A stretch of 50,418 bases of DNA from positions 1 through 50,418 of the forward strand of contig RPRQ01000034.1 in assembly GCA_003818205.1 (NCBI GenBank), in the 5' to 3' direction. The translations under genes were made by a program, and so were the position numbers. The first letter of the stretch is position 1. Each line of letters opens with the position of its first letter. This DNA is from Bacteroidales bacterium (GTDB taxonomy: Bacteria; Bacteroidota; Bacteroidia; Bacteroidales; Tenuifilaceae). Below are positions 23,141 to 50,376 of the stretch, one piece after another. Below the pieces are notes generated by a model that was not told the DNA's origin, did no database searches, and saw only the letters and a list, made by a program, of their open reading frames with translations.

Positions 23141-26100
23141 ATGATAAACCTAGGTATCGAAGGAGCAAAAAGAAAAGTATGGCTATCGGTACTCCTTGGT
23201 ATTTTATGCTTTGCCTTCTCGCCTTTCGGCATAACAACAGTACTGGGCGAAGTGCAGGTTGATATTCCATGGTCGATGATACTGCCTATACTCGCTTCAA
23301 TGGCCTTTGGATTTCGCTATGGTTTAATCGCAGGGCTTTCTGGAGGAGCTTTTTTTCCTTTTCTGCTTTGGGCTAATAATGGGTGGCCAAATCTATTCAC
23401 ATCCATAATCTATTTAGGCATTTACGCTCTGCTTGGTTTGCTGAACGATAAAAACTATTTCAAAAAAATTCAACCTTTTCCTGTTAGGGCTGTTATCGTT
23501 TTCGGGATATGTGCCTCTGTTTTTGCCCTTTACCATCAAATTTTATTCAACCCTCTTTTAGCGATCAACCCCCCATTCTGGGTAAGTAAAACAATCATGA
23601 ATCTTCCGACCGATACGCTAATCGCTTTTACACTAAAGGATACTATAAATATTTTTCTACTCACATTGGCCTCTGAAACCTTGCTAAAGCTACCAGCTGT
23701 TGGCAGGCTTTTGGGATTACCTTCTGAACAATCATCTAAAGCAAATAATAAGATTTTTATCATCTCGATTACAATTTTTTTATTGGTTTGGTTAGCATTT
23801 GTTGGATTAGGCTATTCCCTTTTTAATAAGAATATAGGTTTTGAGGGGGTTCATGTTTCCCTTGCGTTTCTCATAATACTTTCGAGTGGTTTTTTTGTTT
23901 CCCGAATACTCTTCTTCTACAACGAAAAACAGCTCAATGCTCAAGGCGACCTTCATCATAGTGAAGAGAAGTACCGCACTTTAGTTCAGTACTCAAGCGA
24001 CCCAATATTCAGCTTTAACCCCGATGAGACCTATCGGTTCGTGAACGAAGCTTTTGCGCGTGCTTTTGGAAAAGAACCAAAAGACATTATAGGAAAATCT
24101 CCGCATGCCATATTCCCTTTTGATGAAGCTGAAAAACGGCTAATTTTAGTCCGCAAGGTATTTCAGACTGGCAAAAAGGGTGAAATAGAGGTCAAGGTTA
24201 ACGCCCATGCTGGCGATGTACGCTATTTTTTAACCCTAGCCGACCCAATAAAAGATGAAAGCGGCGATGTGCTATTCGTTACTTGTATTTCGAAAAATAT
24301 CACCGAACGCAAACTAGCGGAGAATGCGCAAAAGGAGACCGAGGAACGGTATAGAATCTTTATCTCCCAAGTATCGGAAGGGGTCTATCGTTTCGAACTG
24401 GATGAACCCATGCCTGTGGAAATGCCCCTTGAAGAGCAAATTGATTTTTTATATAACCATATGCGAATTGCAGAGTGCAACAAGGCGTTTACCGAAATGT
24501 ATGGTGCTGATTTACAAAACAAGATAATTGGTAAAACCCAGAAAGAATTTCACGGTGGAACCGATGACCCTATAAACCGTGAAGCCTTTAAACAGTTCAT
24601 AAAAATGGGTTACAGAACCGAGAATGTTGAAACAAAAGAGGTTGATGCCAGTGGGCAGACAAAGTATTACATTAACAACTCCATCGGAATCGTTGAGAAT
24701 GGCTATCTTATCCGAACATGGGGTACTCAAACCGATATTACGACTCAAAAAGAGACCGAATTTGAGCTGATCCGAGCCAAAGAAAAAGCCGAAGACCTAT
24801 TGAATAAAACTCAAAAACAGAATTCAGAGATTGAACTACAAAATGAGCGGTTAGAGAGTTTGCTACGCATATCGCAGCACAAACCAAGTTCGAATCAGGA
24901 TTTACTTGATTACGCTTTAGGAGAAGCCATCTCACTTACTGACAGCAAAATAGGCTATATATACTTTTACAACGAGTCATCCAAGCAATTTACATTGAAC
25001 ACATGGTCTAAAGAGGTAATGAAGGAGTGTTCCGTTTTAAACCCTCAAACGGTGTATGATTTAGATAAAACAGGCTGTTGGGGCGAAGCAGTAAGGCAGC
25101 GTAAGCCAATTATTATCAATAATTATACTGATGAAAACCGTTATAAAAAAGGAACGCCCCATGGGCATGTTAAACTATTAAGGTTTCTAACTATTCCTGT
25201 AGTTATCGACAATACCATCGTTGCGGTTGTTGGCGTTGCCAACAAGAAGGAGGACTATAACCAATCCGATATTCGACAGCTAACCCTTCTCATGGATACC
25301 GTTTGGCGAATTTCAGAAAGAGAAATCATGATCGAAAACCTCAAAAGAGCCAAAGAGAAGGCCGAGGAGAGCGATCGCCTAAAATCGGCTTTTCTTGCCA
25401 ATATGAGCCATGAGATACGCACTCCAATGAACGGAATACTCGGCTTTACAGAACTACTCAAAGAACCACAGCTAACCGGTGAGAAACAGCAGAAATACAT
25501 CGATGTAATAGAACAAAGCGGAACAAGGATGCTCAATATCATCAATGATATCATCAATATCTCAAAGGTTGAATCGGGTCAAATGGAGCTATTGATCTCC
25601 GACACGAATATTAACCAGCAGATTGAATTCATATATACCTTTTTCAAACCCGAGGTTGAGCAGAAAGGGCTACAGATTTTAATGAAAACCCCTTTAGCGG
25701 CAAAAGAAGTTACCATAAAAACAGACCCCGAGAAAGTTTATGCAATCCTCACAAACCTTGTTAAAAATGCCATTAAATTCACCACGCAAGGTTCGATTGA
25801 GATTGGGTATGAGAAGAGGGATCGCTACCTCGAATTTTATGTGAAAGACACGGGGTCAGGCATACCTCAGGAGCAAAGAGATATTATTTTCGAGCGGTTT
25901 AGGCAGGGCAGCGAATCGCTAAGCAGAACATATGAGGGAGCAGGGCTAGGTCTGTCGATATCGAAAGCCTACGTAGAGATGCTAGGCGGTAGAATCTGGG
26001 TAAGCGGTGAGCCTGAAAACGGTTCAACGTTCTATTTCACCTTACCCTTTAACTATATGGAAAAAGAAGAACGTGCTTTAAAAAATGAAATTCCAGCAGG

Positions 26101-26485
26101 TATAATCGAAAAAGTTTCTAAAGACCTGAAAATAATTGTTGCAGAGGATGATGAGCCATCAAGATTATTAATTTCAGAAATCATTGAAAAACAAGGAAAT
26201 ACAGTGCTGTACGCTCAGGATGGCGTTGAAGCGGTTAACCTCTGTCGCAACCATCCCGACATCGACCTAGTGCTAATGGATATTCAAATGCCCGAAATGG
26301 GGGGATATGATGCAATAAAGCAAATCCGAAAGTTCAATAAGGATGTTATAATTATTGCCCAAACCGCCTTTGCCCTTTCGGACGACAAAGAAAAGGTAAT
26401 GGCAGCAGGCTTTAACGATTATATTTCAAAACCGATTAACAAAACGGAGCTATTATCGGTTATTCGATCGCATTTTGAACAGTAA
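23141..26485 (+). CDS. Hybrid sensor histidine kinase (multi-TM, PAS, PAS, GAF, HisKA, HATPase, REC)
   Basis: A 1114-residue inner-membrane signalling protein. A hydrophobic N-terminus of 6-8 helices (about 15-265; MAFGFRYGLIAGLSGG) resembles 5TM-Lyt or S-component-like sensor modules. PAS domains follow at about 273-395 and 398-545, a coiled coil, and a GAF domain at about 573-730 (the IGYIYFYNESSKQFTLNTWS type). HisKA has His757 in FLANMSHEIRTPMNG, then the ATPase (N box NLVKNAIKF, GSGIP, GAGLGLS) and a C-terminal receiver with Asp1047 in LVLMDIQMPEMGG. All catalytic residues are intact. It is the first gene of the same-strand kinase island; the signal is unknown. Confidence 0.9.
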   Translation: MINLGIEGAKRKVWLSVLLGILCFAFSPFGITTVLGEVQVDIPWSMILPILASMAFGFRYGLIAGLSGGAFFPFLLWANNGWPNLFTSIIYLGIYALLGLLNDKNYFKKIQPFPVRAVIVFGICASVFALYHQILFNPLLAINPPFWVSKTIMNLPTDTLIAFTLKDTINIFLLTLASETLLKLPAVGRLLGLPSEQSSKANNKIFIISITIFLLVWLAFVGLGYSLFNKNIGFEGVHVSLAFLIILSSGFFVSRILFFYNEKQLNAQGDLHHSEEKYRTLVQYSSDPIFSFNPDETYRFVNEAFARAFGKEPKDIIGKSPHAIFPFDEAEKRLILVRKVFQTGKKGEIEVKVNAHAGDVRYFLTLADPIKDESGDVLFVTCISKNITERKLAENAQKETEERYRIFISQVSEGVYRFELDEPMPVEMPLEEQIDFLYNHMRIAECNKAFTEMYGADLQNKIIGKTQKEFHGGTDDPINREAFKQFIKMGYRTENVETKEVDASGQTKYYINNSIGIVENGYLIRTWGTQTDITTQKETEFELIRAKEKAEDLLNKTQKQNSEIELQNERLESLLRISQHKPSSNQDLLDYALGEAISLTDSKIGYIYFYNESSKQFTLNTWSKEVMKECSVLNPQTVYDLDKTGCWGEAVRQRKPIIINNYTDENRYKKGTPHGHVKLLRFLTIPVVIDNTIVAVVGVANKKEDYNQSDIRQLTLLMDTVWRISEREIMIENLKRAKEKAEESDRLKSAFLANMSHEIRTPMNGILGFTELLKEPQLTGEKQQKYIDVIEQSGTRMLNIINDIINISKVESGQMELLISDTNINQQIEFIYTFFKPEVEQKGLQILMKTPLAAKEVTIKTDPEKVYAILTNLVKNAIKFTTQGSIEIGYEKRDRYLEFYVKDTGSGIPQEQRDIIFERFRQGSESLSRTYEGAGLGLSISKAYVEMLGGRIWVSGEPENGSTFYFTLPFNYMEKEERALKNEIPAGIIEKVSKDLKIIVAEDDEPSRLLISEIIEKQGNTVLYAQDGVEAVNLCRNHPDIDLVLMDIQMPEMGGYDAIKQIRKFNKDVIIIAQTAFALSDDKEKVMAAGFNDYISKPINKTELLSVIRSHFEQ

Positions 26486-26595: not shown

Positions 26596-29595
26596 ATGAA
26601 CATTGATATCCATACACTAATACTGATAATAGGCATCTCGCACTTGATGCAGGTATTGGTTTTCTTTCATCAATACAAAATCAACCAGTACATTAAAGGA
26701 CCTGGCTGGTGGCTCACATGGAGCGCAATGGAAACGTTGGGTTTTGCGCTTATCCTTCTAAGAGAAGTCCCAGCCTTTACACAATGGAGCATTATTTTTC
26801 AGAATCCAATAATATTCCTAGGTGCAATATTTATATACATAGGTGTGCTGAGATTCTTCAACCAGAAAGTAAATCGGATGCTCATTATCTCCATTATCAC
26901 CTCGTATGCTGCCCTACACCTAATTTTTATTTTCGTCAGAAACGATATACTTATAAGAACCCTTGTATTTGATGCTTACATCGCCTCGATTGCCTTCATC
27001 ACCGCCTTTACACTTTTCAAATACAAGACTAAGGCCTTTGTTTCCTCCATAAATTTTAATATAGCCATATTTATTGTCCATGGAGCCATTTTCACCTACC
27101 GTACGATAATGATTTTATCAGGCACTCCATTTGATGGGGTATTCAGCCAGTCCCTCTTTAACCTCGTTCAGTACTTCGATGCGCTTATCGTTGCATTGCT
27201 CTGGACCTTTGGCTTTATCATCATGCTCAACCAGAGGTTGAACGCTGAAATACTTGAAACCAAAGCGCACTTTGAGGAAATTTTCAATACTAGCCCCGAC
27301 ACTTCGCTGATTACCCGACTCAGCGATGGGTTAATTGTTGATTTAAACGAAAATTTTTCAAAAACATTCGGTTATACAAAAAATGAGCTTTTGGGCAAAT
27401 CGACCCTTGATATTAGCATGTGGAAGAATCCGAAGGACCGGCTTGCAATGATTCAAAATATAGAAGAGAATGGGTATGTAGAAAACTTTGAAGCGCTATT
27501 TCAGCGTAAAAACGGAGAGGTTTTAACCGGGTTAATATCCGCCAAAGGCATATCGCTTAATGGAAATAAGCATATTATAAGCATTACCCGTGATATTACA
27601 GATCGTAAAGAAATTGAATTAAATATACTAAAAACCTCAGAAGCGCTTACATTCCTTGCACAATTCACAAAAACGACATCTAATAGCGATTTTTTTGAGA
27701 AACTTGCTCTTTACCTCGCCGATGCGCTTGAAGCTAATTTTGTATGTATCGATAAGCTTGAGGGTGATGGCCTTAATGCAACTACAATTGCGGTATGGCA
27801 TGATGGAAACTTTGAGGATAATGTAACTTATGCCCTTAAAGATACTCCCTGCGGCGATGTTGTTGGAAAAGCGGTTTGCTGCTTTCCTGCAAGCGTTACT
27901 AGGCTTTTCCCGAATGACACTGTACTTCAAGATTTGAAAGCCGAGAGCTATGTGGGTGTAACCTTATGGAGCCACTCAGGAACGCCAATAGGTCTTATTG
28001 CTGTGATAAAGAAAGCACCACTTAGTAACCAAAAACAAGCTGAGGAATTGCTAAAACTGGTCTCTATTCGCGCTTCGGGTGAACTTGAAAGGATTGAAGC
28101 TGAAGAAACACTTAAAGATAGCGAGCAACGATTGCAATTTGTTCTTCAAGGAAGCGAACTTGGTTTCTGGGACTGGGATTTAAAAACCAATGAGGTTAAA
28201 CGAAACGAGAAATGGGCCGAAATGCTTGGCTACAAACTCGATGAGGTAGAATTTACCGTTAAGCAATGGATTGATTTTATTCATCCCGATGATCAGGCAA
28301 TTGCGCTAAAGTCAATTCAAGATCACCTCGATGGTTTAACGCCAACACATAAGCTTGAGTATAGGATGCAAGTAAAAACAGGCGAGTACAAATGGATTCT
28401 TGATCAGGCTCAAGCGGTGGCTTGGGACTCGAATCGCAAAGTGATTCGTATGAGCGGAACACATACCGATATTACGGAGCGAAAAATGGCTGAAATAGCC
28501 TTACAAGAAAACGAAAAAAAGTATCGGCTACTATTTCAAAATCTTTCCGTTGGGTTTGCATTGCATGAGATTATCTTGAATTCCGATGGTAATCCCTGCG
28601 ACTATAGGTTTCTTGAAATCAACCCCACTTTTGAAATACTTACCGGTCTAAAGGCCAATGATTTAATAGGTAAAACAATTTTAGAGATATTGCCTAATAC
28701 TGAATCGTACTGGATAGATAATTACGGAAAAGTAGCACTAACAGGAATGCCTGTTAGCTTTGAAAATTATAGCGTTGAATTAAACCGACACTATCATGTT
28801 AACGCATACTCTCCCGAATATGGAAAATTTGCCACGATTATTAATGATATCACAGAAAAAAAACAAGTTGAGATTGAAATTCAAAATAAAAACGTTGAAC
28901 TTACAAAGATAAGCTCCGATAAGGATCGCTTTATTTCAATTCTAGCCCACGACCTAAAAAGCCCATTCAATACCATATTGGGCTACCTCGAACTGCTTAC
29001 CGAGAATGTTCGCATCTACGATATCAATAAAATTGAAAACCAAATAGAGATAATTAACCAATCCGCACAGAACACCTATAACCTGCTGGAGGATATACTG
29101 ATGTGGGCACGAACGCAATCGGGTAAAATACCCTTCGAACCAAAAAAAATAATTTGTTCTAGGATATGCGAAGAGGTATTACTTGAAATTAAATTTCTTG
29201 CTGATATTAAAAAAATCACAATTAGCCATTCCTCTGTAGAAGATATAGCCATTTTTGCCGATATTGATATGCTCAAAACCATTCTTAGAAACTTAATCTC
29301 TAACGCCATTAAGTTCACCAACCCTGGAGGAAAAATCAATATTTCAATTAAACAACAAGCAAACTCTCTGATAATCTCTGTCTCCGACAACGGGATTGGA
29401 ATCCCCCCCGAAACCATAAATAAACTGTTTGATGCTACGCAAACAACTACAACCAAAGGAACCACATATGAAGGAGGAACAGGTTTAGGATTAATACTTT
29501 GCAAGGAATTTGTGGAGAAACACGAAGGAAAGATATGGGTCGAGAGCGAGGTGGGCAAAGGGAGTACATTCTATTTTACACTACAAAAGGAGTAA
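26596..29595 (+). CDS. Sensor histidine kinase (7TM, PAS, GAF, PAS, PAS, HisKA, HATPase)
   Basis: A 999-residue membrane kinase. About seven helices (1-225) form an unclassified sensor. A PAS (about 230-340) ends SITRDITDRK, then a GAF-like domain (345-500; DALEANFVCIDKLEGDGLNA, DTPCGDVV) and two further PAS domains (510-630 with GFWDWDLKTNEV and a PAC tail, 640-760). HisKA has His785 in ILAHDLKSPFNTILGY and the ATPase has NLISNAIKF, DNGIGIP and GTGLGLILCKEF. There is no receiver domain, so a separate response regulator must take the phosphate. The 5' leader is largely the half element A4. Confidence 0.9.
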   Translation: MNIDIHTLILIIGISHLMQVLVFFHQYKINQYIKGPGWWLTWSAMETLGFALILLREVPAFTQWSIIFQNPIIFLGAIFIYIGVLRFFNQKVNRMLIISIITSYAALHLIFIFVRNDILIRTLVFDAYIASIAFITAFTLFKYKTKAFVSSINFNIAIFIVHGAIFTYRTIMILSGTPFDGVFSQSLFNLVQYFDALIVALLWTFGFIIMLNQRLNAEILETKAHFEEIFNTSPDTSLITRLSDGLIVDLNENFSKTFGYTKNELLGKSTLDISMWKNPKDRLAMIQNIEENGYVENFEALFQRKNGEVLTGLISAKGISLNGNKHIISITRDITDRKEIELNILKTSEALTFLAQFTKTTSNSDFFEKLALYLADALEANFVCIDKLEGDGLNATTIAVWHDGNFEDNVTYALKDTPCGDVVGKAVCCFPASVTRLFPNDTVLQDLKAESYVGVTLWSHSGTPIGLIAVIKKAPLSNQKQAEELLKLVSIRASGELERIEAEETLKDSEQRLQFVLQGSELGFWDWDLKTNEVKRNEKWAEMLGYKLDEVEFTVKQWIDFIHPDDQAIALKSIQDHLDGLTPTHKLEYRMQVKTGEYKWILDQAQAVAWDSNRKVIRMSGTHTDITERKMAEIALQENEKKYRLLFQNLSVGFALHEIILNSDGNPCDYRFLEINPTFEILTGLKANDLIGKTILEILPNTESYWIDNYGKVALTGMPVSFENYSVELNRHYHVNAYSPEYGKFATIINDITEKKQVEIEIQNKNVELTKISSDKDRFISILAHDLKSPFNTILGYLELLTENVRIYDINKIENQIEIINQSAQNTYNLLEDILMWARTQSGKIPFEPKKIICSRICEEVLLEIKFLADIKKITISHSSVEDIAIFADIDMLKTILRNLISNAIKFTNPGGKINISIKQQANSLIISVSDNGIGIPPETINKLFDATQTTTTKGTTYEGGTGLGLILCKEFVEKHEGKIWVESEVGKGSTFYFTLQKE

Positions 29596-29854: not shown

Positions 29855-29971
29855 AAATAAAGAAGTAATTTGAAAAACATTTAATGTTGAAATTGTACCA
29901 TTCGGCACAGAATATAAACAATAAAACTGAGGTATTATACTGTGCCTTTGGGTACGCAACGCATATACAAA

Positions 29972-32900
29972 ATGGCAAATGTTAAAATCTCCACCATGCC
30001 CATTACGGGGCTCTCATGCAGTAACTGCGCAATGAGTGTGGAAACGAATGTACGAAAGTTGAAAGGGGTTACTGAGGCCAACGTTGATTTCGCTAGCGAA
30101 AAGCTGAACGTTACCTTTGATCCCACTACGATAAGCGAACTCGATATTATTACCTGTATCCGTAATGTCGGATACGGTGTTGCTATTGGCAAAATAGAAC
30201 TACCCATTACGGGTTTGCAGGATAATACCGATGCCTTGACCTTAGAAAAAATTCTTATCAAACAGAATGGCGTGCTTGCTTGTACGGTGAGCTATAGCAC
30301 TGAGCATGCATCGCTAGAGTATATACCCGGTGTAGTAAGCATCGCCGAATTTGCAGAAATAATTCGTAAAGCCGGATTTGATCTGGTTCAAGCAGCCGAA
30401 ACCGAAGAAATAGAGGATGTAGAGGCTCAGGTACGAGCATCGGAGCTTATTAGGCAATGGCAATTACTTCTGGTTGGCCTTATTTTTACCATTCCTTTGG
30501 TCACATACAGCATGCTACGCGACTTTCGAGTTGTAGGATTTGAATATGATCAATTCGCTATGCTATTTGCGGCAACAATAGTACAGTTTATTGTAGGCTG
30601 GAAGTTTTACATTGGCGCATTCAAAAGCCTTAGATACGGAAGCGCAAATATGGATGTTTTGATTATGCTCGGTTCATCGGTTGCCTACTTTTCAAGTTTA
30701 CTGGTTACCATAAAAATAATCGATAGCCCAAACGTTTACTTCGAAACGGGTGCAGCCATAATCACCCTTATCCGACTTGGGAAATACTTAGAGGTACGCG
30801 CCAAAGGCAAAACATCGGAGGCGTTGAAAGCGCTCATGGGCTTACGAGCAAAAACAGCATTCGTTATACGCAATGGGGTTGAAATAGAGATAAGCGTTGA
30901 GGGGGTTACTGTTGGCGATATAGTTGTGGTCCGCCCTGGCGAGAAAGTACCCGTTGATGGTATTATTAGCGAAGGTCGATCGGCTTTTGAAGAGTCGATG
31001 ATTACCGGTGAATCAATGCCCGTAAGCAAAGGTCCTGGCGATGAAGTTATCGGAGCAACAATTAACCACGAAGGGTTAATAAAATTCGAAGCAACCAAGG
31101 TTGGGAAGAACACCGCTCTGGCTCAGATAGTAAAACTTGTTCAGCAAGCACAAGGAAGTAAAGCGCCTATTCAGAAGCTAGCCGATGAGGTGGGTAAATA
31201 TTTCGTTCCGATAATTATAGGATTAGCTCTATTCACTTTCTTCGGGTGGGTCTATGTTGCCCAAGTTGACTGGACTGGAGCCATGATAAATGCCATTGCA
31301 GTGGTAGTTATCGCCTGCCCATGCGCAATTGGGTTAGCTACCCCAACAGCAATTATGGTGGGTACATCCAAGGGTGCAGAGAACGGAATCCTATTCAAGA
31401 ATAGCGAGGTGTTGGAGCGAGCCGGGAAAATAAACATTGTTGTACTCGATAAAACGGGAACCATTACCCGAGGTGAGCCCGAAGTTACAGATATCATCGC
31501 GCTTAGTAATTTATCAGAAAACGAAATTCTTCGTCTTGCAGCAAGCGCAGAGCGGGGCTCAGAGCACCCCATAGGTCGTTCTATGGTAATATCTGCGCAG
31601 GAAAAGGGGTTAACACTTATCGACCCATCGCAATTCCGTGCGCATAGCGGTTTTGGTATTCGGGCAACTGTTGAAAACCAAAACATCATTTTTGGAAATC
31701 CACGGATGATGCAGAACGAAGGCATCGACATTGAATCAATCCAAGATGAGGTTACCCGGCTGCAAAGTAGAGGCAGAACGGTTATGGTACTAGCATTAAG
31801 TTCTTCAAACAGCAATCACCCTTTCCGATTAGCCGGTTTAATAGCCGTAGCCGACACATTAAAAGCAGGTGCCAAAGAGGCCATTGCCGAACTGCGACAG
31901 CTTGGGCTAGAGATTGTAATGATTACAGGCGATAACCAGAGCACCGCCGATGCCATTGCCAAAGAGGTAGGCATTACCCGAGTAATTGCCGAAGTACTAC
32001 CGAATGGAAAAGCTGATGCAATCAAGCAATTGCAGGCTAGTAAATCGTTAGGGAATTTTGCACACCCTACCGTTGCTATGGTTGGCGATGGCATAAACGA
32101 TGCCCCTGCCCTAGCGCAAGCCGATGTAGGAATTGCCATTGGCACAGGCACCGATATTGCTATGGCTGCCGCAGGTATTACGCTAATAAGCGGCGACCTA
32201 TCGGGTGTTGGAAAAGCCATATCGCTTTCGCGGGGTACTTCACAAACTATAGTTCAGAATTTGATTTGGGCGCTATTCTACAATGTAGCCTTAATCCCCA
32301 TTGCAGCATACGGTTTGCTTAGCCCAATGTTTGCCGCTGGGGCTATGGCGTTCAGCTCCATTTTTGTGGTAACCAATAGCCTCCGATTGAAAGCGTACAA
32401 GGTGCAAACTTTCGCACCAAAGAAAAGTATTCTTCGCCAATCGTTGGAGCTTTTACCACGTATTATTGCACCTGCAATAGCTCTAGCCGTACTCATTATT
32501 GCGCCAATGCTATTCATGCCAGACAGTAGCATGGAGATCAAGGGCGCAAATCCCGGAAATATGCCACCGTTCCTAATGATGGTTATGGCCCTTTCCAATG
32601 CCTTAATTGCAGTGGCTTACGCCTCTATCCCATTCTTCCTAATCGTTTTTGTCAGAAAACGAAAGGATATGCCTTTCACTTGGATAATCTTCCTGTTCGG
32701 GCTATTTATTCTTGCCTGTGGGACTACGCATATCATGCACGTTATCGGTCTTTGGTGGGAGGTAAACTGGTGGCAGGCTAGCGTTGATGCTATTTGCGCA
32801 ATTGTTTCAATAGCAACAGCTGTTGTTGTATGGCCTGTACTACCAAAAATCTTATCAATCCCTAGCCCAAAACAGCTACAGATGGTGAATAGTGCATTAC

Positions 32901-35900
32901 AAGAGGAGAAAAACAAACTTATTTTCACACAAAAAGAGCTACAAAGGGCTTATAATGAAGTAGAAAAACTTATAAAAGAAAGAACCTCCGAGCTAGTTAT
33001 CGCCAATAAATCCCTAAAGGAAGAGATCGATGAGCGCATAAGAGCTGAAGAAGCCATGCAAAGAAGCGAAGAGTACTTCAGAAATATTTTCGAACATGCT
33101 ACCGTTGGAAAATCGATTACCCAAATAGGGGGGAATTTAAAAACCAATAGAGCGTTTCGACAGATTCTAGGCTACTCCGAGGATGAACTGGCAACACTTA
33201 AATGGTTTGAGATAACCCATCCTGATGATGTGGAAAGAGACAAAAATCAGATCGATTCGCTGATATCTGGCAAATACAGCTCATTGCGCTGGGAGAAGAG
33301 GTACATCCACAAAAATGGGCATACCGTTTGGGTTGACCTAAGCACCGTTCTACAACGGGATAGCAATGACAAACCTCAATACTTCATAACTACAATTCAG
33401 GATATTACAGAACAAAAACAGACAATAACAGCACTCCTTGAGAGTGAGGAGCGATTCCGTAAAGCATTTTTAATCAACCCCGATTCGATAACCATTACCC
33501 GTCAGAATGATGGGAGATACGTTTCGGTGAATGAGGGGTTTACTAATATTTTTGGCTACACCCAGGAGGAGGTTATAGGTAAAACCTCCCTGGAGATAAA
33601 TATGTGGCAAAACCCCAATGAACGGAATAAATTCGTTGCCGAATTGAAAGCGAAAGGGGTTACTGAAAATTTTGAGGCAAAGCTCATAACCAAAGATGGG
33701 AGGTTGGTTGAGTGCATTGTATCAGCAGCGTTAATAGATCAAAATAACACTCCTCTAATACTAAGTTCAACCAGAAATATAACCGAGAACAAACGAACAG
33801 AAGCAACAAAAGCAAGGCTTCTGCACATCCTCGAATCGAGTATCAACGAAATTTATGTATTCGATCCTAGCAGCTTACTTTTCGAATATGTAAATAAAGG
33901 AGCGTTACAAAATCTTGGTTACACCTTGGAGATAATGCAGAGCATGACACCTGTTGATTTGAAGCCAGAGTTTACAGAAACATCATTCCGCAAAACTATC
34001 GAACCATTGCTCAGACACGAACAAAAACAGCTAGAATTCAATACGGTACACCGCCGTGCCAATGGCACTCTTTACTCCGTTGAAGTTCATCTGCAACTCG
34101 TTGAATACAAAGGCAATCAGGTATTTCTAACCGTAATTCTCGATATCACAAAGCGTAAAGAAGCCGAAGAAGCCCTTATAGAAAGCGAACGACTGCTGAG
34201 AGAATCTCAAGAAGTTGCTCGGCTGGGTAGCTACGCCTGGGATTTATCGATCGGGCTATGGAAAAGTTCCGATATTCTTGATGAGATTTTCGGGATAGAT
34301 GATAATTATATACGAACTCTTGAGGGTTGGGAGAATATCATTCATCCCAACTGGCGAAACGAAATGACCAGCTACGTTATCAACGAAGTTATTGGTAAAC
34401 ATCAACGATTCGATAAGGAGTATAAGATCATCAGGCAAAACGATGGTCAGGAACGCTGGGTGCATGGATTAGGCGTTCTTGAGATTAATGATAAGAATAA
34501 GCCCCTAAAGCTAATCGGAACGATAAGCGATATAACCGAGCGGAAGCAGATAGAATCGGCTCTACTCGAAAGTGAAGAGAAATATCGTTTAATTGCAGAT
34601 AACACAGAGGATTGGGTCTATTGGGTAACCCCAAATAGAACCTTGCGTTACACCTCGCCGTCCTGCGAAAAATTAACCGGATACACACCCCTAGAATTCA
34701 CTAGTAATCCCAACCTTATTGAGGAAATAATTTACTCTGAGGATGCCGAAGTTTTCAAGCTTCACTCCAAAATTATTCAAGAAGAAAAGTGTGCGGAGGA
34801 TATAGAGTTCAGAATAAATACAAAAGCAGGTAAAGTACTATGGGTGAGCCATTCATGCAGTCCAATATACACACCTATTGGCGAATATGCTGGACGAAGA
34901 ATAACATGCCGAAATATTAATGCCCGCAAGCTAGCCGAAGAAGCGCTCAACCGACAGAATACGCTTCTTTCAACTCTATTAAAAAATCTTCAAATTGGAA
35001 TATTTATGGTTGAGGCACCATCGGGCAAACCCTTACTGGCGAATGATGCTGCCTACAATCTACTTGGACGCGGAATACTGCCTGATGTAAACAAGAATAA
35101 TCTTTCGGAAGTTTACAGAGCATATAAAGCTAGTAGCAATGAGCCATACCCTCCCGAAGAGATGCCAATTACCCTCGGGTTAATGGGTGAATCGGCACAT
35201 ATTGACGATATGGTAGTGGAGCGTCCTGATGGTACAAAAACGCTACTTGAAATATTCGGAGCACCTATACTCGATAAGGATGGTAAGGTTTGGGCAAGCC
35301 TTGTGAGTTTTTTTGATATCACAGAGCGCAAACAAGCCGAAGAAAAACAAAAAGAAAGTCTTGCTATTATTAAAATTGCTGGCAAAATAGCCAAGCTGGG
35401 AGGCTGGAATGTAAATCTTAAAGAAAATCGTTCATACTGGTCTGACGAGGTGGCTGCTATTCATGAAATGCCAGTTGGTTACGCCCCTCTTGTTGAAGAC
35501 GGCATTAACCTTTACGCCCCAGAGTGGCGCGATAGAATATCTGAAGTTTTTACCAATTGCGCTCAAAAAGGTATTCCTTACAATGAAGAGTTGGAAATCA
35601 TCACTTATAGCGGTAAAAGGGTTTGGGTACATACTATTGGTGAAGCAGTTAAAGATGATCAAGGTGTTATTTATAAAGTGCAAGGTGCATTTCAGGATAT
35701 ATCAGAGCGAAAGCGAGTGGAAAATTCGTTGCATTCAATTACGTTGCGTCAGGAAGCTCTTCTTTTTTCAATCCCTGAAATACTGATGGAGGTCGATAAT
35801 AACAAAACCTACATATGGGCAAATAAACCAGGTTTTGATTTTTTTGGTGAAGATGTTATTAGCCATAATGCCGATTTCTACTTTGAAGGTGAGCAGGATA

Positions 35901-36829
35901 CCTATAACACCGTAAAACCGATCTTTAATAGTACCGAAAACTTGATCTATGTTGAGAGTTGGCAACGGCGAAGGGATGGAGAGAAAAGATTACTTGCTTG
36001 GTATTGTACTCCCCTCAGAGATGAAAATGGAAAGGTGAAAGGTGCGCTCTCCTCTGCCCGGGATATAACAGAACGAAAGCAAATCGAGGAGGAAATAAAA
36101 AAACTCAACGAGACGCTAGAACAAAGGGTTGTCCAACGTACCGAGCAGCTCGAAGCGGTCAACAAGGAGCTGGAGGCATTCAGCTACTCCGTCTCGCACG
36201 ATTTGCGATCCCCTTTACGGCATATCAGCGGTTTCGCCGAAATGCTGTCGAAAGATGCAGGCGAGCAGTTAACAAAAGATGCTCAGCATTACCTTGAAGT
36301 TATCAATGGTTCGGCTCAAAGAATGGGAATCCTGATCGATGATCTGCTCAAATTCTCCCGGACTGGTCGGGCTGAGATTAAAAAATCGAAATTTAGCATG
36401 AATCAAGCGGTGGATGATGCAATATCGCAGGTTAAACTTGCAATTACCGAACGCCAGATTCGTTGGGAAATATCACCTCTACCCGAAATTTTCGGCGATT
36501 ATAACCTTATACGTTTAGCATTAATTAACTTAATCGATAATGCAGTAAAATATACCCGAACCCGTAAAAAAGCCATAGTACGCATCAATTTTAGGGAAGA
36601 GGCGAATGAGTATATTTTCTGTATTCACGATAACGGGGTTGGTTTCGAGATGCAGTATGCTCAAAAATTATTCGGTGTTTTCCAACGCCTACACACATCC
36701 TCCGACTTTGAAGGAACAGGTATAGGTCTAGCAAATGTTCGCCGCATAATTCTTAAGCATGGCGGACGTATTTGGGCCGAAGCAGAGGTTGATAAAGGAG
36801 CCAAATTTTACTTTACAATACCAAAATAG
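29972..36829 (+). CDS. Cu(I) P1B-ATPase fused to an ethylene-receptor-like sensor, eight PAS domains and a histidine kinase
   Basis: One open frame of 2285 codons. Part 1 is a copper exporter: heavy-metal domain with C16-S-N-C19, a second such domain without Cys (75-140), actuator TGES 345-348, CPC 449-451, phosphorylated D493 in DKTGT, HP 532-533, GDGIND from 705, and Cu(I)-type Y770-N771 and M792-x2-S795-S796. Part 2 is an extra helix, about 831-851. Part 3 (872-970) aligns to ETR1 without gaps: Tyr883, Ile886, Pro887, Ile913, Cys916 and His920 match Tyr32, Ile35, Pro36, Ile62, Cys65 and His69; Asn876 replaces Asp25. Part 4 is a coiled coil, eight PAS domains (1032-2032), HisKA with His2076 and an ATPase ending [14 protein letters not shown]. 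The ATG is preferred to GTG at 29942, which adds ten residues. Copper-dependent ethylene or small-olefin sensing is inferred from residues and spacing. Confidence 0.93.
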
Positions 36830-37008: not shown

Positions 37009-37455
37009 ATGGTCGATCTAAAAACAATTCTGCTTGCAGAAGACAACCCGAATGATGTAGAGCTAACCCTCCGGGCTCTTTCCGAGCATAACCTTGCCAA
37101 CCGGGTTGTTACCGTTAAAGACGGTGTTGAGGTTATGGAGTACCTAAAGTGCGAGGGAAAATTCAAACAGCGCAAAAAAGGTAATCCTGCGGTAATCCTG
37201 CTAGATATTAAAATGCCCCGCATGGATGGCATTGAGGTGCTAAGCTCAATACGAAACGAGCCTGCATTCAGAATAATTCCTGTTGTAATACTCACCTCCT
37301 CGCGCGAAGAGCCCGACCTAAAAAGATGCTATGAGCTTGGAGCGAATGCCTATGTAGTTAAACCCGTTGATTTTAAAGATTTTTTTGAAGCCGTTAAACA
37401 ATTAGGGGTGTTCTGGGGCTTAATCAACGAGCTGCCCCCCAATGGAGGGAAATAG
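37009..37455 (+). CDS. Single-domain response regulator, Rcp1 (phytochrome partner) type
   Basis: A 148-residue receiver with no output domain. ILLAEDNPNDVELTLRAL supplies the acidic pocket, Asp66 in VILLDIKMPRMDG is the phosphoacceptor, and VILTSS plus Lys in YVVKPVDF complete the site. The long insert with KCEGKFKQRKKGNPAVI is typical of Rcp1-like regulators, which pair with phytochrome-type kinases whose dimerisation helix reads [11 protein letters not shown], the form seen at the end of the preceding fusion. It starts 179 bp after the fusion and is its probable phosphate acceptor. Confidence 0.9.
   Translation: MVDLKTILLAEDNPNDVELTLRALSEHNLANRVVTVKDGVEVMEYLKCEGKFKQRKKGNPAVILLDIKMPRMDGIEVLSSIRNEPAFRIIPVVILTSSREEPDLKRCYELGANAYVVKPVDFKDFFEAVKQLGVFWGLINELPPNGGK
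37445..37449 (+). promoter_or_regulatory. Shine-Dalgarno-like GGAGG that sets the second receiver start
   Basis: GGAGG lies 7 bp before the ATG at 37457, inside the last codons of the preceding regulator. It favours 37457 over the ATG at 37442, and the two genes are probably translationally coupled. Such a motif is uncommon elsewhere in this window. Confidence 0.45.
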
Positions 37456-37456
37456 T

Positions 37457-38020
37457 ATGGAAACGATTAAAACAGAGGGAGCGCTGAACGTACTTTCGCT
37501 TGAGGACTCAATGCCTGACTTCGAGATAATTCGAAATCATCTGATAAATGCTGGCTTTAACCTAAACTTTTCTCACGTTGACACGGAGAATGATTTTTCG
37601 TTTGCCCTGCGCAGCAACAGGTTCGATATCATCATAGCTGATTTCAGCCTGCCAGGGTTCAACGCCTTTGCTGCGCTAAAGCTATGCAAAGCAATTTGTC
37701 CGATGACCCCATTCATCTGCGTATCGGGTTCTATCGGTGAGGAAACAGCTATAGAGCTAATCAAACAGGGTGCGGTTGACTACATCCTAAAGGATAGGCT
37801 AGGCAGGCTTTCCTCAGCCATAAAGCGTGCGCTCGACGAAGCCAAAGAAAAAGAGATACGGCTAAAGGCAGAGAAAGAGCTGTTAGCCAAAATGGATGAA
37901 TTGCAGCGGTTTCACGACCTAACCGTAGGGCGCGAGCTGAAAATGATTGAACTCAAAAAGGAGATAAATGAGCTGCTGAAAGAATTGGGAAGGAAAGAAA
38001 AGTTTAAGATTGTTGAATGA
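37457..38020 (+). CDS. Response regulator with C-terminal coiled coil
   Basis: A 187-residue protein. The receiver covers about 8-130, with acidic pair LEDSMPDFEII, phosphoacceptor Asp62 in IIIADFSLPGF, Ser in CVSGSIGEE and Lys in YILKDRLGRL. A charged coiled coil (about 135-187) includes a TVGRELKMIELKKEINELLK segment, the phase-setting text often found just before kinase or cyclase domains, but here the protein stops. It may be the receiver-plus-linker piece of a larger regulator used as a stand-alone adaptor. It begins one base after the stop of the Rcp1-like gene, so the two form one operon with it. Confidence 0.88.
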   Translation: METIKTEGALNVLSLEDSMPDFEIIRNHLINAGFNLNFSHVDTENDFSFALRSNRFDIIIADFSLPGFNAFAALKLCKAICPMTPFICVSGSIGEETAIELIKQGAVDYILKDRLGRLSSAIKRALDEAKEKEIRLKAEKELLAKMDELQRFHDLTVGRELKMIELKKEINELLKELGRKEKFKIVE

Positions 38021-45726: not shown

Positions 45727-48700
45727 ATGAGACCAGCTAAACTATTCTTCGTCTTTCTTTTACTTTTTCTGCTATCCGAAAATTCAACCGCTCAGAAGCA
45801 AGGGTTAGAACTTATTGATTCATTAAAATTAGACCTCGTTAACGCATCTAATGACACCAACAAGGTAGCTAAGCTATGTCGTATTGCTTTCGAACACCAC
45901 AGATTCGATACCGACTTAGGGATAAAGTATGCCGAACAAGCATTGCGTATAGCCGATAGCCTTTCGTGGAAGAAAGGGATAGCATACGCTTGCAATGCTC
46001 TCGGTGTGAACTATATAATAAAAGGAAGCTATCCCGAAGCGTTGTACTACTTTCAGAAATCGCTAGCAAAGTACACCGAAATTGGGGATAGCCGAATGGT
46101 AGCCACCCTCTGCAACAACCTTGGTCTAATCTACAACGGACAGAACGACTACATAAAAGCCATTGAATACTTTAACAAATCCTTAGCCATCAACGAACGG
46201 CTCAAAAACCAAAGGGGGCTTTCCTTGAACTACGGCAATCTGGCCCTAGTATTCAGCAACCAAAAACAGTACGAGAAGTCCAACGAGTACTACCTCAAAG
46301 CGCTAAAGATTGACCAAGCGATGAACAATAAGGATGCCATTTCAAGAAACCTTTCCAACATCGCTTCCATGAAAAGCGTAACAAAAGATTACTGCGAATC
46401 GCTTGACTATGGCTTAAAAGCCCTTAGCATAAGCGAGGAGATCAAGAGCAATTACAACCAAGGGTTTTGTAATAAAAGTGTAGGCGAAACCTACTATGGA
46501 GTAGCCATTGATAGCAGCATTGCCCTTAACAGCTGCAGCCACTTTAAACCCAATAAGAATGAGAATCTTCGAGCGGCCATCATGTACCTAACCCGGTCAA
46601 TTGAATTCTTTAGCAAAGTAAACGATTTGCGCTCGATATCCGATGCCAATCTCATCATCTCTAAAGCATACGAATCTTTAGCCGATTCAAAAAACGCCCT
46701 TATTTACTTTAAGCATTACTCCAACAATAAGGACTCCGTAATCGCTCGCGATAACAAGGAAAAACTTGCCAAAATCGAAAACAAATTTGAAATCGACATT
46801 CAGGCAAAGCAGCTCGAAATTAAATCGCTTGAGGTAAAGAACAAGAACAACCAGATTTTTTTTCAGATTCTCGTCTCGCTAATCGTGGTAATCACAATAT
46901 CCATCATATCCTTTATCCTTTATAAAAAGCAAAAGTTTCAGAAAGCCATTAACCTGGAGCTGAACACGAAGAACCTAGCGCTCGAAAAGAGCGAGGAGAA
47001 GCTAAGGGTTCTTTTCGAGACTATGCCTATTGGGTTCTACATCTCCACGCTTGATGGCCACTATATTGATGTTAACCCGGCACTAGTAAAAATGCTCGGC
47101 TACGATAGCCGCGAAGAGCTGCTTAATGTTTCCATACCCAATGATGTTTACCTAAACGCATTCGAGAGGGATGATATTATCCAACGGAATAACGATTTCG
47201 TGAATAGCGTTGAGCAGTACCAGCTTAAGACGAAGGATGGGCGGGTTATCTGGATTGAGGATAACGCTATGTATATCAAGGATAGTAAGGGTAATGTTAT
47301 CTATAACGAGGGGTTCTGCCGCGATATCACCGATCGCAAGCTGGCTGATGAAATTCTGCGAGAGAACGAGGAGAAATACCGGTACATGTTCGACAACAAC
47401 CCACAACCCATGTTCATCTACGATCCCGAAACGCTTGCATTTCTCGAAGTTAACCAATCAATGGAGCACATCTACGGTTATACCCATGAGGAATTCCTGA
47501 ACACCACCCTAAAGGTTTTTCACCTACCCGAGGATAACGAGAAGTTGATGGTTGATATTGAACGGGCTAAGCGAAGCAGTAACCCAAGAGGGGAGTGGAG
47601 GCATATCAAGAAGAACGGGGATATAATTTTTGTTGAAATCCGATCGCACTCCCTGACATATCGAGGAAAGAGCGCACGTCACGTTCTAGTCCATGATGTT
47701 ACTGAACGCAAGCGTGTAGAGGATGCCCTACGCCTGAGCGAAGAAAAATTTAGGCGGTTAATCACCAATATAAGAGACATTGTCTATAGCGTAGATGTTG
47801 TAACGAAAGAGTTTAAATACCTAAGCCCTTCGTTCGAGAGAATCACTGGCTATTCCGAAGATGATATTAAACGGATGGGGGGACGCGAGGCCTTTCTGAC
47901 CTTTGCTGTAACCAAAGAAAAATTCACCGAATGGGATAATAACCTCCAAAAATTAACGGACCTCAACAATGGCGTCAACTTAGAGCATGAAACCTGGTGG
48001 CTTTGCAAGGATGGATCATACAAATGCCTAGAGGATCACTGGACTCCTGTATTTGAAAACGGTAAGCTGGTATCAACCGATGGTGTGCTTATCGATGTAA
48101 CCGATCGAAAACATGCAGAATCGGCACGACTCGAAAGCGAGGAAAAGCTCAAAGACCTATTTGAGAACATGATGAATGGCTTCTACCGCTCTACGCCCGA
48201 AGGTTATTTTGTTGATGCAAACCCTGCATTCGTTAAAATGTTGGGCTACGAGAGTAAAGAGGAGCTGCTAAAAGTTTACATCCCTATAGATTTGTATGTC
48301 AATCCTATTGAAAGGGACGAGTTCTCGCATACCGATGCAAATAACAGCTTCGAGATTTACCGCCTAAAAGCCAAGGATGGTCGGGTTATCTGGATTGAGG
48401 ACAACGCAAGATATTTAAAGGATGAAAATGGTAAAATCATCTACCACGAAGGGATTTGCCAGGATATCACCGATCGAAAACAGGCAGAAATGGCTCTTCG
48501 GGTAAGCGAAGAAAAGTTCAGGTTACTATTCGAAACAATGCCCAATGGCTACTACCGATCTACCAAAGAGGGCCATTATGTGGATGTAAATCCTGCATTC
48601 GTTAAAATAATGGGCTACGCAAGCAGAGAGGAGCTGCTAAAAGTGTATATACCCACCGATGTTTACGTAAAGCCCGAAGAGCGAGAACAGTTTATTCGTC

Positions 48701-50376
48701 AGAACTCTGAATTTGAAGACGAACTGGTAACTTTCCGCCAAAAGACTAAGGATGGAAGGATTATCTGGCTCGAAGAAAACGCAAGGTATATCAAAGATGA
48801 AAATGGAGAAGTAATTTTTTACGAAGGGATCTGCCGTGATATCACTGAACGCAAACTGGCTGATACTGCACTGCGGGAAAGCGAGGAAAAATTCAAAAAT
48901 TTATTCGAAAATATGCCCAATGGATACTACCGCTCAACGCATGATGGGTATTATGTTGATGCAAATCCTGCATTCATTAAAATGTTAGGGTACGAAAGTA
49001 AAGAGGAACTATTAAAAGTTTACATTCCTACCGACTTGTATGTTGAGCCAAGCGAAAGAGAGATTGTTATAGATTTTGTTAATAATCCTAATAATTTTGA
49101 AGTGTACCGTCAAAAAACCAAAGATGGTCGGATTATCTGGCTTGAGGATAATGCTCGGTATATCAAAAACGAAAAAGGGGAAATATTATTCCATGAAGGG
49201 ATTTGCCGCGATATAACCGATAGGAGACGAGCCGAGGAAGCCCTGCGCGAAAGCGAGGAGAAGCTGAATACCCTTTTCAACACCATGACCGAAATGGTGG
49301 CCATATATGAACTCGTGCTCAACGAACAAGGCGTAGCTATAAACTACCGCATTACCGATTGCAACGATACGTTCACGCAAATAACCAGCATTAAGAAGGA
49401 GGAGGCTATCGGTAAACTCGCCACCGAAATATATAAAACAACACACGCCCCATACCTCGAAGAGTTTGCCAAGGTTGCACAAACCGGTGAGAACTTCAGC
49501 TACTCAACCTATTTTGAGCCCATGGACAAGCACTTCATGGTCTCGGTGGTATCGCCTAAGAAAAACCTCTTCGCCACCATTACCACCGATATTACCGAAA
49601 TAAAGCAGATTCAGGAGGCGATGACAAGCAAAAAGAACGAGCTCGAAAACTACCTCTACGTTGCATCGCACGATCTCCGATCGCCCATGGTCAATATTCA
49701 AGGGTTTAGCCAACGTTTGCAAAGGCAATCCGATTCAATACAGGGAATTCTAGCAGAGTGCAAACTTGACGAGGAAACAAAGGTTAAACTCGGAAGCATT
49801 GCTCACGATGGGATACCAAAAACGTTAAACTTCATCCTCTCCAATGTTACTAAAATGGATACCCTCATCAACGGGCTATTGCAAATATCCCGAACGGGTC
49901 GGATAAAGATGAACATTCAAAAAATTGACATCAACCACCTATTCAAAACAATTATTGCGAATAATAACTTTCAGATATCTGAAATATCGGCACAAATTAT
50001 TGTCAATGACCTGCCCAATTGCTACGGAGACGAAAACCAGCTAAACCAGCTGTTCTCCAATATTATTGGGAATGCGCTAAAGTACAGAGATAAAAAACGC
50101 CAGATGACCATTGAAATTTCTGGTCATATTCATTTCAATAAAGTAATTTTTAGCATTCAGGATACTGGGATTGGTATCCCTCCCAAATACCTTGACAAAA
50201 TATGGGATGTATTCTTTAGGGTGGACACCAACTCTACCGAAAGCGGAGAAGGTATAGGGTTAAGCCTGGTAAAGAGAATTATTGATAAGCATAAAGGTAA
50301 AATATGGGTGGAATCCACCGAAGGGGTTGGTAGCACCTTTTACATTGAATTGCAAAAGAATGTCTTTTCCGAATAA
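45727..50376 (+). CDS. TPR-sensor histidine kinase with seven PAS domains
   Basis: A 1549-residue membrane kinase. A signal peptide (1-22), periplasmic TPR units (about 40-350; NNLGLIYNGQNDYIKAIEYF) and a helix (377-400) form the input, as in many Bacteroidota tetratricopeptide kinases. Seven PAS domains (422-1290) follow; the first, fourth, fifth and sixth are close paralogs, each with GHYIDVNPAFVKMLGY-like and KTKDGRVIWIEDNARYIKDE-like text. HisKA has His1315 in YVASHDLRSPMVNIQGF and the ATPase has NIIGNALKY, DTGIGIPPK and GEGIGLSLVKRI. It has no receiver; the next gene, starting at 50394, may encode one. The PAS repetition marks recent internal duplication. Confidence 0.92.
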   Translation: MRPAKLFFVFLLLFLLSENSTAQKQGLELIDSLKLDLVNASNDTNKVAKLCRIAFEHHRFDTDLGIKYAEQALRIADSLSWKKGIAYACNALGVNYIIKGSYPEALYYFQKSLAKYTEIGDSRMVATLCNNLGLIYNGQNDYIKAIEYFNKSLAINERLKNQRGLSLNYGNLALVFSNQKQYEKSNEYYLKALKIDQAMNNKDAISRNLSNIASMKSVTKDYCESLDYGLKALSISEEIKSNYNQGFCNKSVGETYYGVAIDSSIALNSCSHFKPNKNENLRAAIMYLTRSIEFFSKVNDLRSISDANLIISKAYESLADSKNALIYFKHYSNNKDSVIARDNKEKLAKIENKFEIDIQAKQLEIKSLEVKNKNNQIFFQILVSLIVVITISIISFILYKKQKFQKAINLELNTKNLALEKSEEKLRVLFETMPIGFYISTLDGHYIDVNPALVKMLGYDSREELLNVSIPNDVYLNAFERDDIIQRNNDFVNSVEQYQLKTKDGRVIWIEDNAMYIKDSKGNVIYNEGFCRDITDRKLADEILRENEEKYRYMFDNNPQPMFIYDPETLAFLEVNQSMEHIYGYTHEEFLNTTLKVFHLPEDNEKLMVDIERAKRSSNPRGEWRHIKKNGDIIFVEIRSHSLTYRGKSARHVLVHDVTERKRVEDALRLSEEKFRRLITNIRDIVYSVDVVTKEFKYLSPSFERITGYSEDDIKRMGGREAFLTFAVTKEKFTEWDNNLQKLTDLNNGVNLEHETWWLCKDGSYKCLEDHWTPVFENGKLVSTDGVLIDVTDRKHAESARLESEEKLKDLFENMMNGFYRSTPEGYFVDANPAFVKMLGYESKEELLKVYIPIDLYVNPIERDEFSHTDANNSFEIYRLKAKDGRVIWIEDNARYLKDENGKIIYHEGICQDITDRKQAEMALRVSEEKFRLLFETMPNGYYRSTKEGHYVDVNPAFVKIMGYASREELLKVYIPTDVYVKPEEREQFIRQNSEFEDELVTFRQKTKDGRIIWLEENARYIKDENGEVIFYEGICRDITERKLADTALRESEEKFKNLFENMPNGYYRSTHDGYYVDANPAFIKMLGYESKEELLKVYIPTDLYVEPSEREIVIDFVNNPNNFEVYRQKTKDGRIIWLEDNARYIKNEKGEILFHEGICRDITDRRRAEEALRESEEKLNTLFNTMTEMVAIYELVLNEQGVAINYRITDCNDTFTQITSIKKEEAIGKLATEIYKTTHAPYLEEFAKVAQTGENFSYSTYFEPMDKHFMVSVVSPKKNLFATITTDITEIKQIQEAMTSKKNELENYLYVASHDLRSPMVNIQGFSQRLQRQSDSIQGILAECKLDEETKVKLGSIAHDGIPKTLNFILSNVTKMDTLINGLLQISRTGRIKMNIQKIDINHLFKTIIANNNFQISEISAQIIVNDLPNCYGDENQLNQLFSNIIGNALKYRDKKRQMTIEISGHIHFNKVIFSIQDTGIGIPPKYLDKIWDVFFRVDTNSTESGEGIGLSLVKRIIDKHKGKIWVESTEGVGSTFYIELQKNVFSE

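Follow-up and report, generated by a model that had tools for sequence, protein, structure and literature searches.

Can a copper pump and a receptor of the kind that takes copper as its cofactor be built as one molecule? The question is raised by a gene of a Bacteroidales bacterium of the family Tenuifilaceae (GenBank assembly GCA_003818205.1, contig RPRQ01000034.1), of which we analyzed one stretch of 50,418 nucleotides (positions 1 to 50,418 of the forward strand, hereafter the window). A single uninterrupted plus-strand frame at 29972-36829 runs from ATG to stop and encodes 2,285 amino acids, in which a Cu(I) P1B ATPase is followed by an ethylene-binding domain (EBD) like that of the plant receptor ETR1, by PAS domains, and by a histidine kinase; an alternative GTG start upstream, at 29942, would make the product 10 residues longer. 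A reading made from the sequence alone had proposed this combination, together with delivery of the copper cofactor within one molecule and the function of an ethylene receptor. The fusion is confirmed and is more general than first noted, copper supply in cis is plausible, and the ethylene claim was too confident. The parts of the gene, and the residues on which the argument turns, are as follows.

29972..36829, + strand: fusion gene, in the order HMA, P1B Cu ATPase, linker helix, EBD, PAS array, histidine kinase (open reading frame, Pfam/NCBIfam)
29999..30175, + strand: HMA copper-binding domain, residues 10-68, with C16xxC19 (Pfam; C16 and C19 invariant in 27/27 aligned fused copies)
30188..30376, + strand: possible second HMA-like fold without CxxC, residues 73-135 (weakly inferred from model secondary structure and sequence)
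30596..32392, + strand: Cu(I) P1B ATPase core, residues 209-807 (TIGR01511 and motifs)
32462..32518, + strand: predicted linker membrane helix, residues 831-849 (hydropathy, charge, helix in both AlphaFold2 models)
32516..32587, + strand: Met-rich segment preceding the first EBD membrane helix (TM1), with M849, M854, M864, M869, M870, and M872 (alignment)
32573..32860, + strand: ETR1_N ethylene-binding domain, residues 868-963, three membrane helices (Pfam PF25487)
32597..32599, + strand: N876, at the position of ETR1 D25 (residue alignment)
32717..32719, + strand: C916, at the position of the ETR1 copper ligand C65 (residue alignment)
32729..32731, + strand: H920, at the position of the ETR1 copper ligand H69 (residue alignment)
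32738..32740, + strand: H923, a second His specific to the fusion family (residue alignment)
32786..32788, + strand: D939, at the position of ETR1 K91 and AzoEtr1 K98 (residue alignment)
33062..36082, + strand: PAS domain array, residues 1031-2037 (Pfam/NCBIfam)
36173..36361, + strand: HisKA phosphoacceptor domain, residues 2068-2130 (Pfam)
36494..36823, + strand: HATPase_c kinase domain, residues 2175-2284 (Pfam)

The Pfam and NCBIfam matches of this protein are far beyond chance. TIGR01511 scores 574.7 bits over residues 209-807 against a cut-off of 397, and the ETR1_N family PF25487 scores 107.5 bits over residues 868-963 against a cut-off of 27 (E 4.3e-31). An H-box is present and both HisKA and HATPase_c are matched, as in a sensor histidine kinase. 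One continuous frame and these matches bear out the proposals that ATPase and ETR1-type sensor kinase share a single protein and that PAS domains and then a histidine kinase follow the EBD, while the TIGR01511 score and a full motif set show the Cu(I) ATPase to be complete.

The chance that a chimeric assembly or a frameshift joined two separate genes is negligible. One genome per species (84,980 species) was searched with the joint, and the best 80 of 191 relatives were kept; 31 of those 80 loci carried the ATPase and an EBD with an intact core motif in one open frame, five of them cut by contig ends (L027, L033, L036, L039, and L052). The fusion, present in at least these 31 loci, is not confined to the genome studied here, and one of the 31 copies (L016) sits within a contig of 5.26 Mb. 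In a codon comparison with four relatives, third-codon-position bias continues over ATPase, linker, and EBD; against L022, linker codons 810-865 differ 10, 6, and 29 times at codon positions 1, 2, and 3. Because independent assemblies share the same in-frame joint and this joint evolves as coding sequence, an assembly join or frameshift is ruled out, and the continuous frame on which the original proposal depended stands.

Cu(I) P1B-1 ATPases are recognized by CPC in the fourth membrane helix (M4), N(x6)YN(x4)P in M5, and MxxSS in M6. All three occur in the window's protein (C449-P-C451, N763x6YNx4P776, and M792xxS795S796), together with TGE at 345-347, D493KTGT, H532, and GDGxND at 705-710, and from this intact set we infer that the fused ATPase exports Cu(I). 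A check of 28 of the 34 intact fusions, the others having been fetched or assembled in part, found CPC, DKTGT, GDGxND, and the M5 and M6 signatures in all 28, TGE in 27 (not L041), and the HP pattern in 27 (not L020); CPC, M5, and M6 signatures are invariant across the 27 rows of the fused-copy alignment. The HMA domain, CPC, DKTGT, and the M5/M6 signatures are common to the fusion, to CopA-type Cu(I) P1B-1 ATPases (PDB 7r0g, 3j09, and 3rfu), and to RAN1/HMA7, and the best PDB matches of the ATPase part are copper ATPases. Compared with CopA, the fusion has about 1,450 further residues that make up the extra helix, the EBD, and the kinase; the nearest Chloroflexota (Anaerolineae) CopA proteins in our tree end 1-24 residues past the core, before the linker helix. 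The fused protein is the sole P1B ATPase over the cut-off in its own genome, which is 99% complete, and in 12 of 22 searched intact-fusion genomes of unstated completeness; the other 10 hold at least one further copy. Being the only such ATPase in a genome suggests that the fusion serves there as the working copper pump. No CsoR copper repressor was found in four same-genus genomes, where CueR and CopY were not searched for. The HMA-like fold without CxxC at 30188-30376 may be compared with the degenerate metal-binding domain MBD3 reported in RAN1 (PMC12586476).

The sensor half has kept much of the ETR1 site and changed the rest in a consistent way. For the family, residues were counted over 37 distinct sequences, of which 34 are intact fusions, one is the degenerate relative L043, and two are free EBD-kinases considered below (the fragment L044 was left out); the comparison set is 28 unfused EBDs, 18 from Bacteroidota and 10 plasmid-borne, including AzoEtr1. 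The six ETR1 residues listed in the sequence-only reading are present as Y883 (Y32), I886 (I35), P887 (P36), I913 (I62), C916 (C65), and H920 (H69), and the family is nearly uniform at each: C65, I35, and I62 are kept in 37/37, Y32 and H69 in 36/37, and P36 in 35/37. The seven residues needed for ethylene binding comprise these six and D25. The one that is not kept, Asp25, was omitted from that list and is Asn876 here. Its replacement holds throughout the family, with Asn in 37/37 sequences versus Asp in 25 of 26 readable unfused EBDs, and so does a replacement at the K91 position, where the family has Asp in 37/37 and the 28 unfused EBDs have Lys (22), Arg (4), Gln (1), or Leu (1). With both positions changed in every family sequence, the designation "ETR1-like ethylene receptor" is too strong. 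For ETR1, seven residues have been reported as necessary for ethylene binding, mutation of D25 as abolishing it, and D25 as predicted to bond K91, which has a role in signal output (PMC11819568); a further report describes ETR1 D25N as functional with an affinity about 100-fold lower and mentions natural variants at D25 (PMC13012798). The alignment to ETR1, described earlier as free of gaps, is so through the second EBD membrane helix (TM2) and not beyond it, since 22 residues separate H69 from K91 in ETR1 and 19 separate H920 from D939. A spacing of 19 equals that of H79-K98 in AzoEtr1; the Azospirillum locus (L128) yields D35, C75, H79, and K98, matching the published AzoEtr1 numbers (PMC11819568).

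Other changes set the family apart from unfused EBDs. A second His three residues past H69 (H923) is found in 36/37 family sequences versus 1/28 unfused ones. Counted over at most 32 residues ahead of the D25 position, Met averages 6.6 in the family (n=37) versus 1.1 in unfused EBDs (n=28), where the latter were read from frames, the alignment columns being often unaligned, and where the free EBD-kinases L123 and L125 offer only 24 and 26 residues. The motif [HR][GW]xCxxW before TM1 (Cys-Trp motif), possibly equivalent to the Cys residues near the N-terminus of ETR1, occurs in 0/37 family sequences versus 27 of 28 readable unfused EBDs, L134 being without it; the unfused loci surveyed were L103-L121, L128-L137, L168, and L172. 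Of these, L107 was left out of the Met and Cys-Trp counts, as was L122, a very divergent unfused EBD that is included in the D25, K91, and His counts and absent from the EBD tree. The fusion EBD therefore shares with ETR1, SynEtr1, and AzoEtr1 the Pfam domain, the C65/H69 ligands, Y32, I35, P36, and I62, and a kinase after the EBD, but differs from them in having N for D25 and D for K91, no Cys-Trp motif, a Met-rich entry, an extra His, and a place on a copper pump. Outside the fusion family, two unfused Bacteroidota EBDs have a broken D25/K91 pair (Asn/Leu in L113 and, as read by eye, Asp/Leu in L181), and a further Bacteroidota EBD gene, that of L107 (G397), has one TGA within its match.

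P1B ATPases have eight membrane helices. With that number the chain leaves M6 on the cytosolic side, and a single further helix is needed for the EBD to start outside, as in ETR1. A helix called at residues 831-849 from hydropathy and flanking charge has four Lys/Arg before it and one after; the EBD helices at 876-894, 904-922, and 940-958 have 0/4, 4/0, and 0/2 before and after, and the positive-inside pattern of these four C-terminal helices fits an EBD with its N-terminus outside. Hydropathy also called one false helix, at 721-739. The linker helix is thus predicted to put the EBD N-terminus on the outer side, where such pumps release copper, and the Met-rich segment, found only in the fusion family, lies between pump and EBD. 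An AlphaFold2 model of 1,018 residues had a predicted local distance difference test (pLDDT) score of 69.1 and a predicted template modeling (pTM) score of 0.51, with blocks below pLDDT 60 throughout residues 771-970, too weak for reading geometry such as the placement of C916 and H920; a second model, of residues 815-1004, reached a pLDDT of 79.4 and a pTM of 0.51 and shows four helices and a coiled coil. Foldseek found no match to this second model in the PDB at E up to 0.001, and a sequence comparison with the EBD gave no similar PDB chain at E up to 1.

Fusion records carry the labels Bacteroidota, Thermodesulfobacteriota (Geobacter, Desulfuromonadales), Verrucomicrobiota, Spirochaetota, Chlorobiota, and Omnitrophota, with one Clostridiaceae, one "Deltaproteobacteria" bin, and one locus (L040) unplaced; because the named records are metagenome assemblies, the number of phyla is a count of labels only, and single bins may be wrong. 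Locus G+C is 36.9-52.4% in those labeled Bacteroidota versus 50.6-66.5% in the others. The fusion occurred in 3 of 395 Bacteroidota genomes of an even sample (G000, G210, and G399), and in the window's order 10 of 393 genomes gave a match, comprising five full fusions, three remnants, one unfused EBD, and one chance match. Apart from the window's own, the fusion and remnant genomes of the order-level sample are those of L014, L016, L024, L034, and L045-L047, already among the 80 loci, so that this sample gives a rate and no new cases. Within the Tenuifilaceae, an EBD was found in one genus of nine (4 of 27 genomes).

In a tree of 89 ATPase sequences, the fused copies group with their truncated derivatives in a single clade (41 rows) with a support of 100 in the Shimodaira-Hasegawa-like approximate likelihood ratio test (SH-aLRT), and this clade adjoins CopA of unfused type from Chloroflexota (support 91). 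The 66 EBD sequences give a tree in which the fusion family is again one clade (37 rows, support 100/96). Both trees are without an outgroup, and the ATPase tree is of a quick type, with SH-aLRT only and several long branches; it omits L027 and L033, includes L017 as a full fusion, and uses once any gene fetched as two loci. One clade for each half points to a single old fusion event with losses afterwards. Such losses can be seen within the fusion clade, where L043 has no kinase and a degenerate EBD (Y32, P36, and H69 lost), L044-L049 have an EBD that is cut, deleted, or reduced to a stub, and L050 and L051 have none. L043-L051 can be read as a decay series in which the ATPase is kept throughout.

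The sensor half can also be found alone, in two genomes (G024 and G025) from the genus to which the window belongs:

L123, 5973-10142: free fusion-type EBD-kinase
L125, 1333-5886, - strand: free fusion-type EBD-kinase

These proteins begin with MEIG (G024) and MEIE (G025), both at the position of the fusion's M854, and no ATPase remnant was detected in the fetched flank. Both keep N and D at the D25 and K91 positions. The G024 protein also keeps the TM1 Met, while the G025 EBD is degrading, with P36 and two TM1 Met lost. The CopA of each genome is on a separate contig and falls outside the fusion clade. The fusion gene might itself have an internal start at the M854 site. Both halves, then, can exist apart, yet the fusion has lasted, and coupling of ATPase to sensor is not obligatory. 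Separate, adjacent ATPase and EBD genes, as expected of a prefusion state, did not occur in the fetched surroundings of 10 EBD genes on plasmids, a sample of 10 of 19 matching plasmid records; about 3.3 kb was fetched around unfused Bacteroidota EBDs.

What does such a protein do? We favor, as evenly poised between right and wrong, the reading that it unites in one chain a copper pump and a sensor kinase for copper state, with Cu(I) handed over in cis and the sensor perhaps tuned by a gas; copper delivery within one molecule is plausible from the layout of the fusion. Cytosolic Cu(I) would enter via the HMA domain and be exported by the ATPase, to be picked up on the predicted outer face by the Met-rich segment. 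It could then move along TM1/TM2 past H923, a candidate added ligand, and be held at C916/H920. Copper occupancy of the EBD, or a ligand of that copper, would act through the helix bundle and the coiled coil to set the kinase, which would signal to the neighboring single-domain response regulator, as gene layout and the example of AzoEtr1 suggest. Copper is the expected main signal because the D25-K91 pair is N-D and new Met/His ligands are present; from the same residues we expect any response to ethylene or another pi-ligand to be weaker than that of ETR1, although a gas response may persist given the kept Y32, I35, P36, and I62. More specific, and held only tentatively, is the possibility of a new class of metal transceptor, whose kinase would report copper flux and not ethylene, the EBD having been rebuilt by its Met ladder, second His, and N/D pair into a Cu(I) acceptor that meters the pump's export.

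Several observations weigh against this copper-sensing reading or limit its reach. No usefully confident model has the Met residues, H923, and C916/H920 together, and all 31 named fusion records are metagenome assemblies. Nine relatives (L043-L051) keep the ATPase with EBD and kinase degenerate or lost, and the two free EBD-kinases of G024 and G025 do without the ATPase. Retention of Y32, I35, P36, and I62 speaks for a pocket that, like the one in ETR1, takes a pi-ligand. Finally, Pfam kinase domains occur in 27 of 31 fusion-family C-termini, leaving four without a match, and no more than 21 of 28 fused copies match a simple H-box pattern, so that kinase output is common in the family but not universal.

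In the strongest competing explanation, the protein is a true receptor for ethylene (or CO, acetylene, or another olefin), the pump loading the Cu(I) cofactor in cis and the gas being the signal. We consider it unlikely, though a serious contender. Conservation of C916, H920, Y883, I886, P887, and I913 in 35 to 37 of 37 sequences is what a gas receptor would show; the layout of EBD, kinase, and single response regulator is that of AzoEtr1 (PMC11819568), plant ETR copper requires RAN1 (PMC12586476, PMC6656775), and the description of ETR1 D25N as functional, if some 100-fold weaker (PMC13012798), would accommodate the Asn. It accounts less well for the N/D replacement in 37/37 and the loss of the Cys-Trp motif (0/37), and the new Met and His residues are better explained by copper than by ethylene binding.

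Mere tethering, for co-expression or placement, with the EBD drawing periplasmic copper as unfused EBDs do, would fit the separate survival of the halves in relatives and the free G024 protein that begins MEIG at the place of M854. It is nonetheless improbable in our judgment, since the linker helix and Met-rich segment are family-specific, coding, and conserved, and the fusion persists in records labeled with several phyla. Far more remote is a role of the EBD as a regulatory cap, by which copper or gas bound there would slow the ATPase, with the kinase in a subordinate role. Relatives L043 and L046-L049, which keep ATPase, linker helix, and partial EBD and have no kinase, and the Pfam HisKA/HATPase match missing from 4/31 C-termini could be cited for it, but the EBD remnants are degenerate (L043 without Y32, P36, and H69), which looks like decay, and a kinase is present in 27/31.

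Among known systems, CbrA reportedly joins a histidine kinase to an SLC5 transporter within a single protein. Such a shared chain is common to CbrA and the fusion, but the fusion differs in that an ATP-driven metal pump is joined through a sensor whose known cofactor is the pumped ion. Bacterial EBD proteins are reported to carry diverse output domains, some absent from plant receptors (PMC7700396). We found no description of an EBD fused to an ATPase among the titles and abstract openings listed from the open-licence literature, which is weak evidence of absence. RAN1 and ETR1 are treated as two separate proteins in two reports, where the copper source of ETR1 is disputed between direct docking of RAN1 on the receptor and passage via the lumen of the endoplasmic reticulum, and the side of delivery is left open (PMC12586476, PMC6656775). 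With pump and receptor in one chain and a Met-rich segment predicted to lie outside, the copper-delivery question becomes testable in one protein, and the N/D subfamily offers ready variants by which signal output can be told apart from the binding of copper and of ethylene, and these two from each other. Bacteria may, as the fusion suggests, read copper export with a kinase; if a flux transceptor is what it is, it would amount to the RAN1-to-ETR1 hand-over carried out naturally within one chain, the copper arriving from the outer (lumenal) side.

Genes for a possible output lie directly downstream:

37009..37455, + strand: single-domain response regulator, likely partner of the fusion (profile match, position)
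37442..38020, + strand: second response regulator, overlapping the end of the first regulator gene (profile match)

In AzoEtr1, a 135-residue response regulator is likewise reported directly downstream, so that a regulator next door to an EBD-kinase is common to both (PMC11819568). Across the family, 19 of 29 next-downstream genes encode a receiver domain; some are hybrid kinases, and some frames are on the opposite strand. Upstream of the window's fusion are a hybrid kinase (23141-26485) and a PAS kinase (26596-29595), and past both regulators follow a CheR protein and two hybrid kinases. The region 23141-50376 is a long one-strand array of sensor kinases, response regulators, and CheR around the fusion, its last frame (45727-50376) being known from kinase and PAS matches only. 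In 3 of 26 related loci, the upstream neighbor of the fusion is a DsbD_2 membrane protein.

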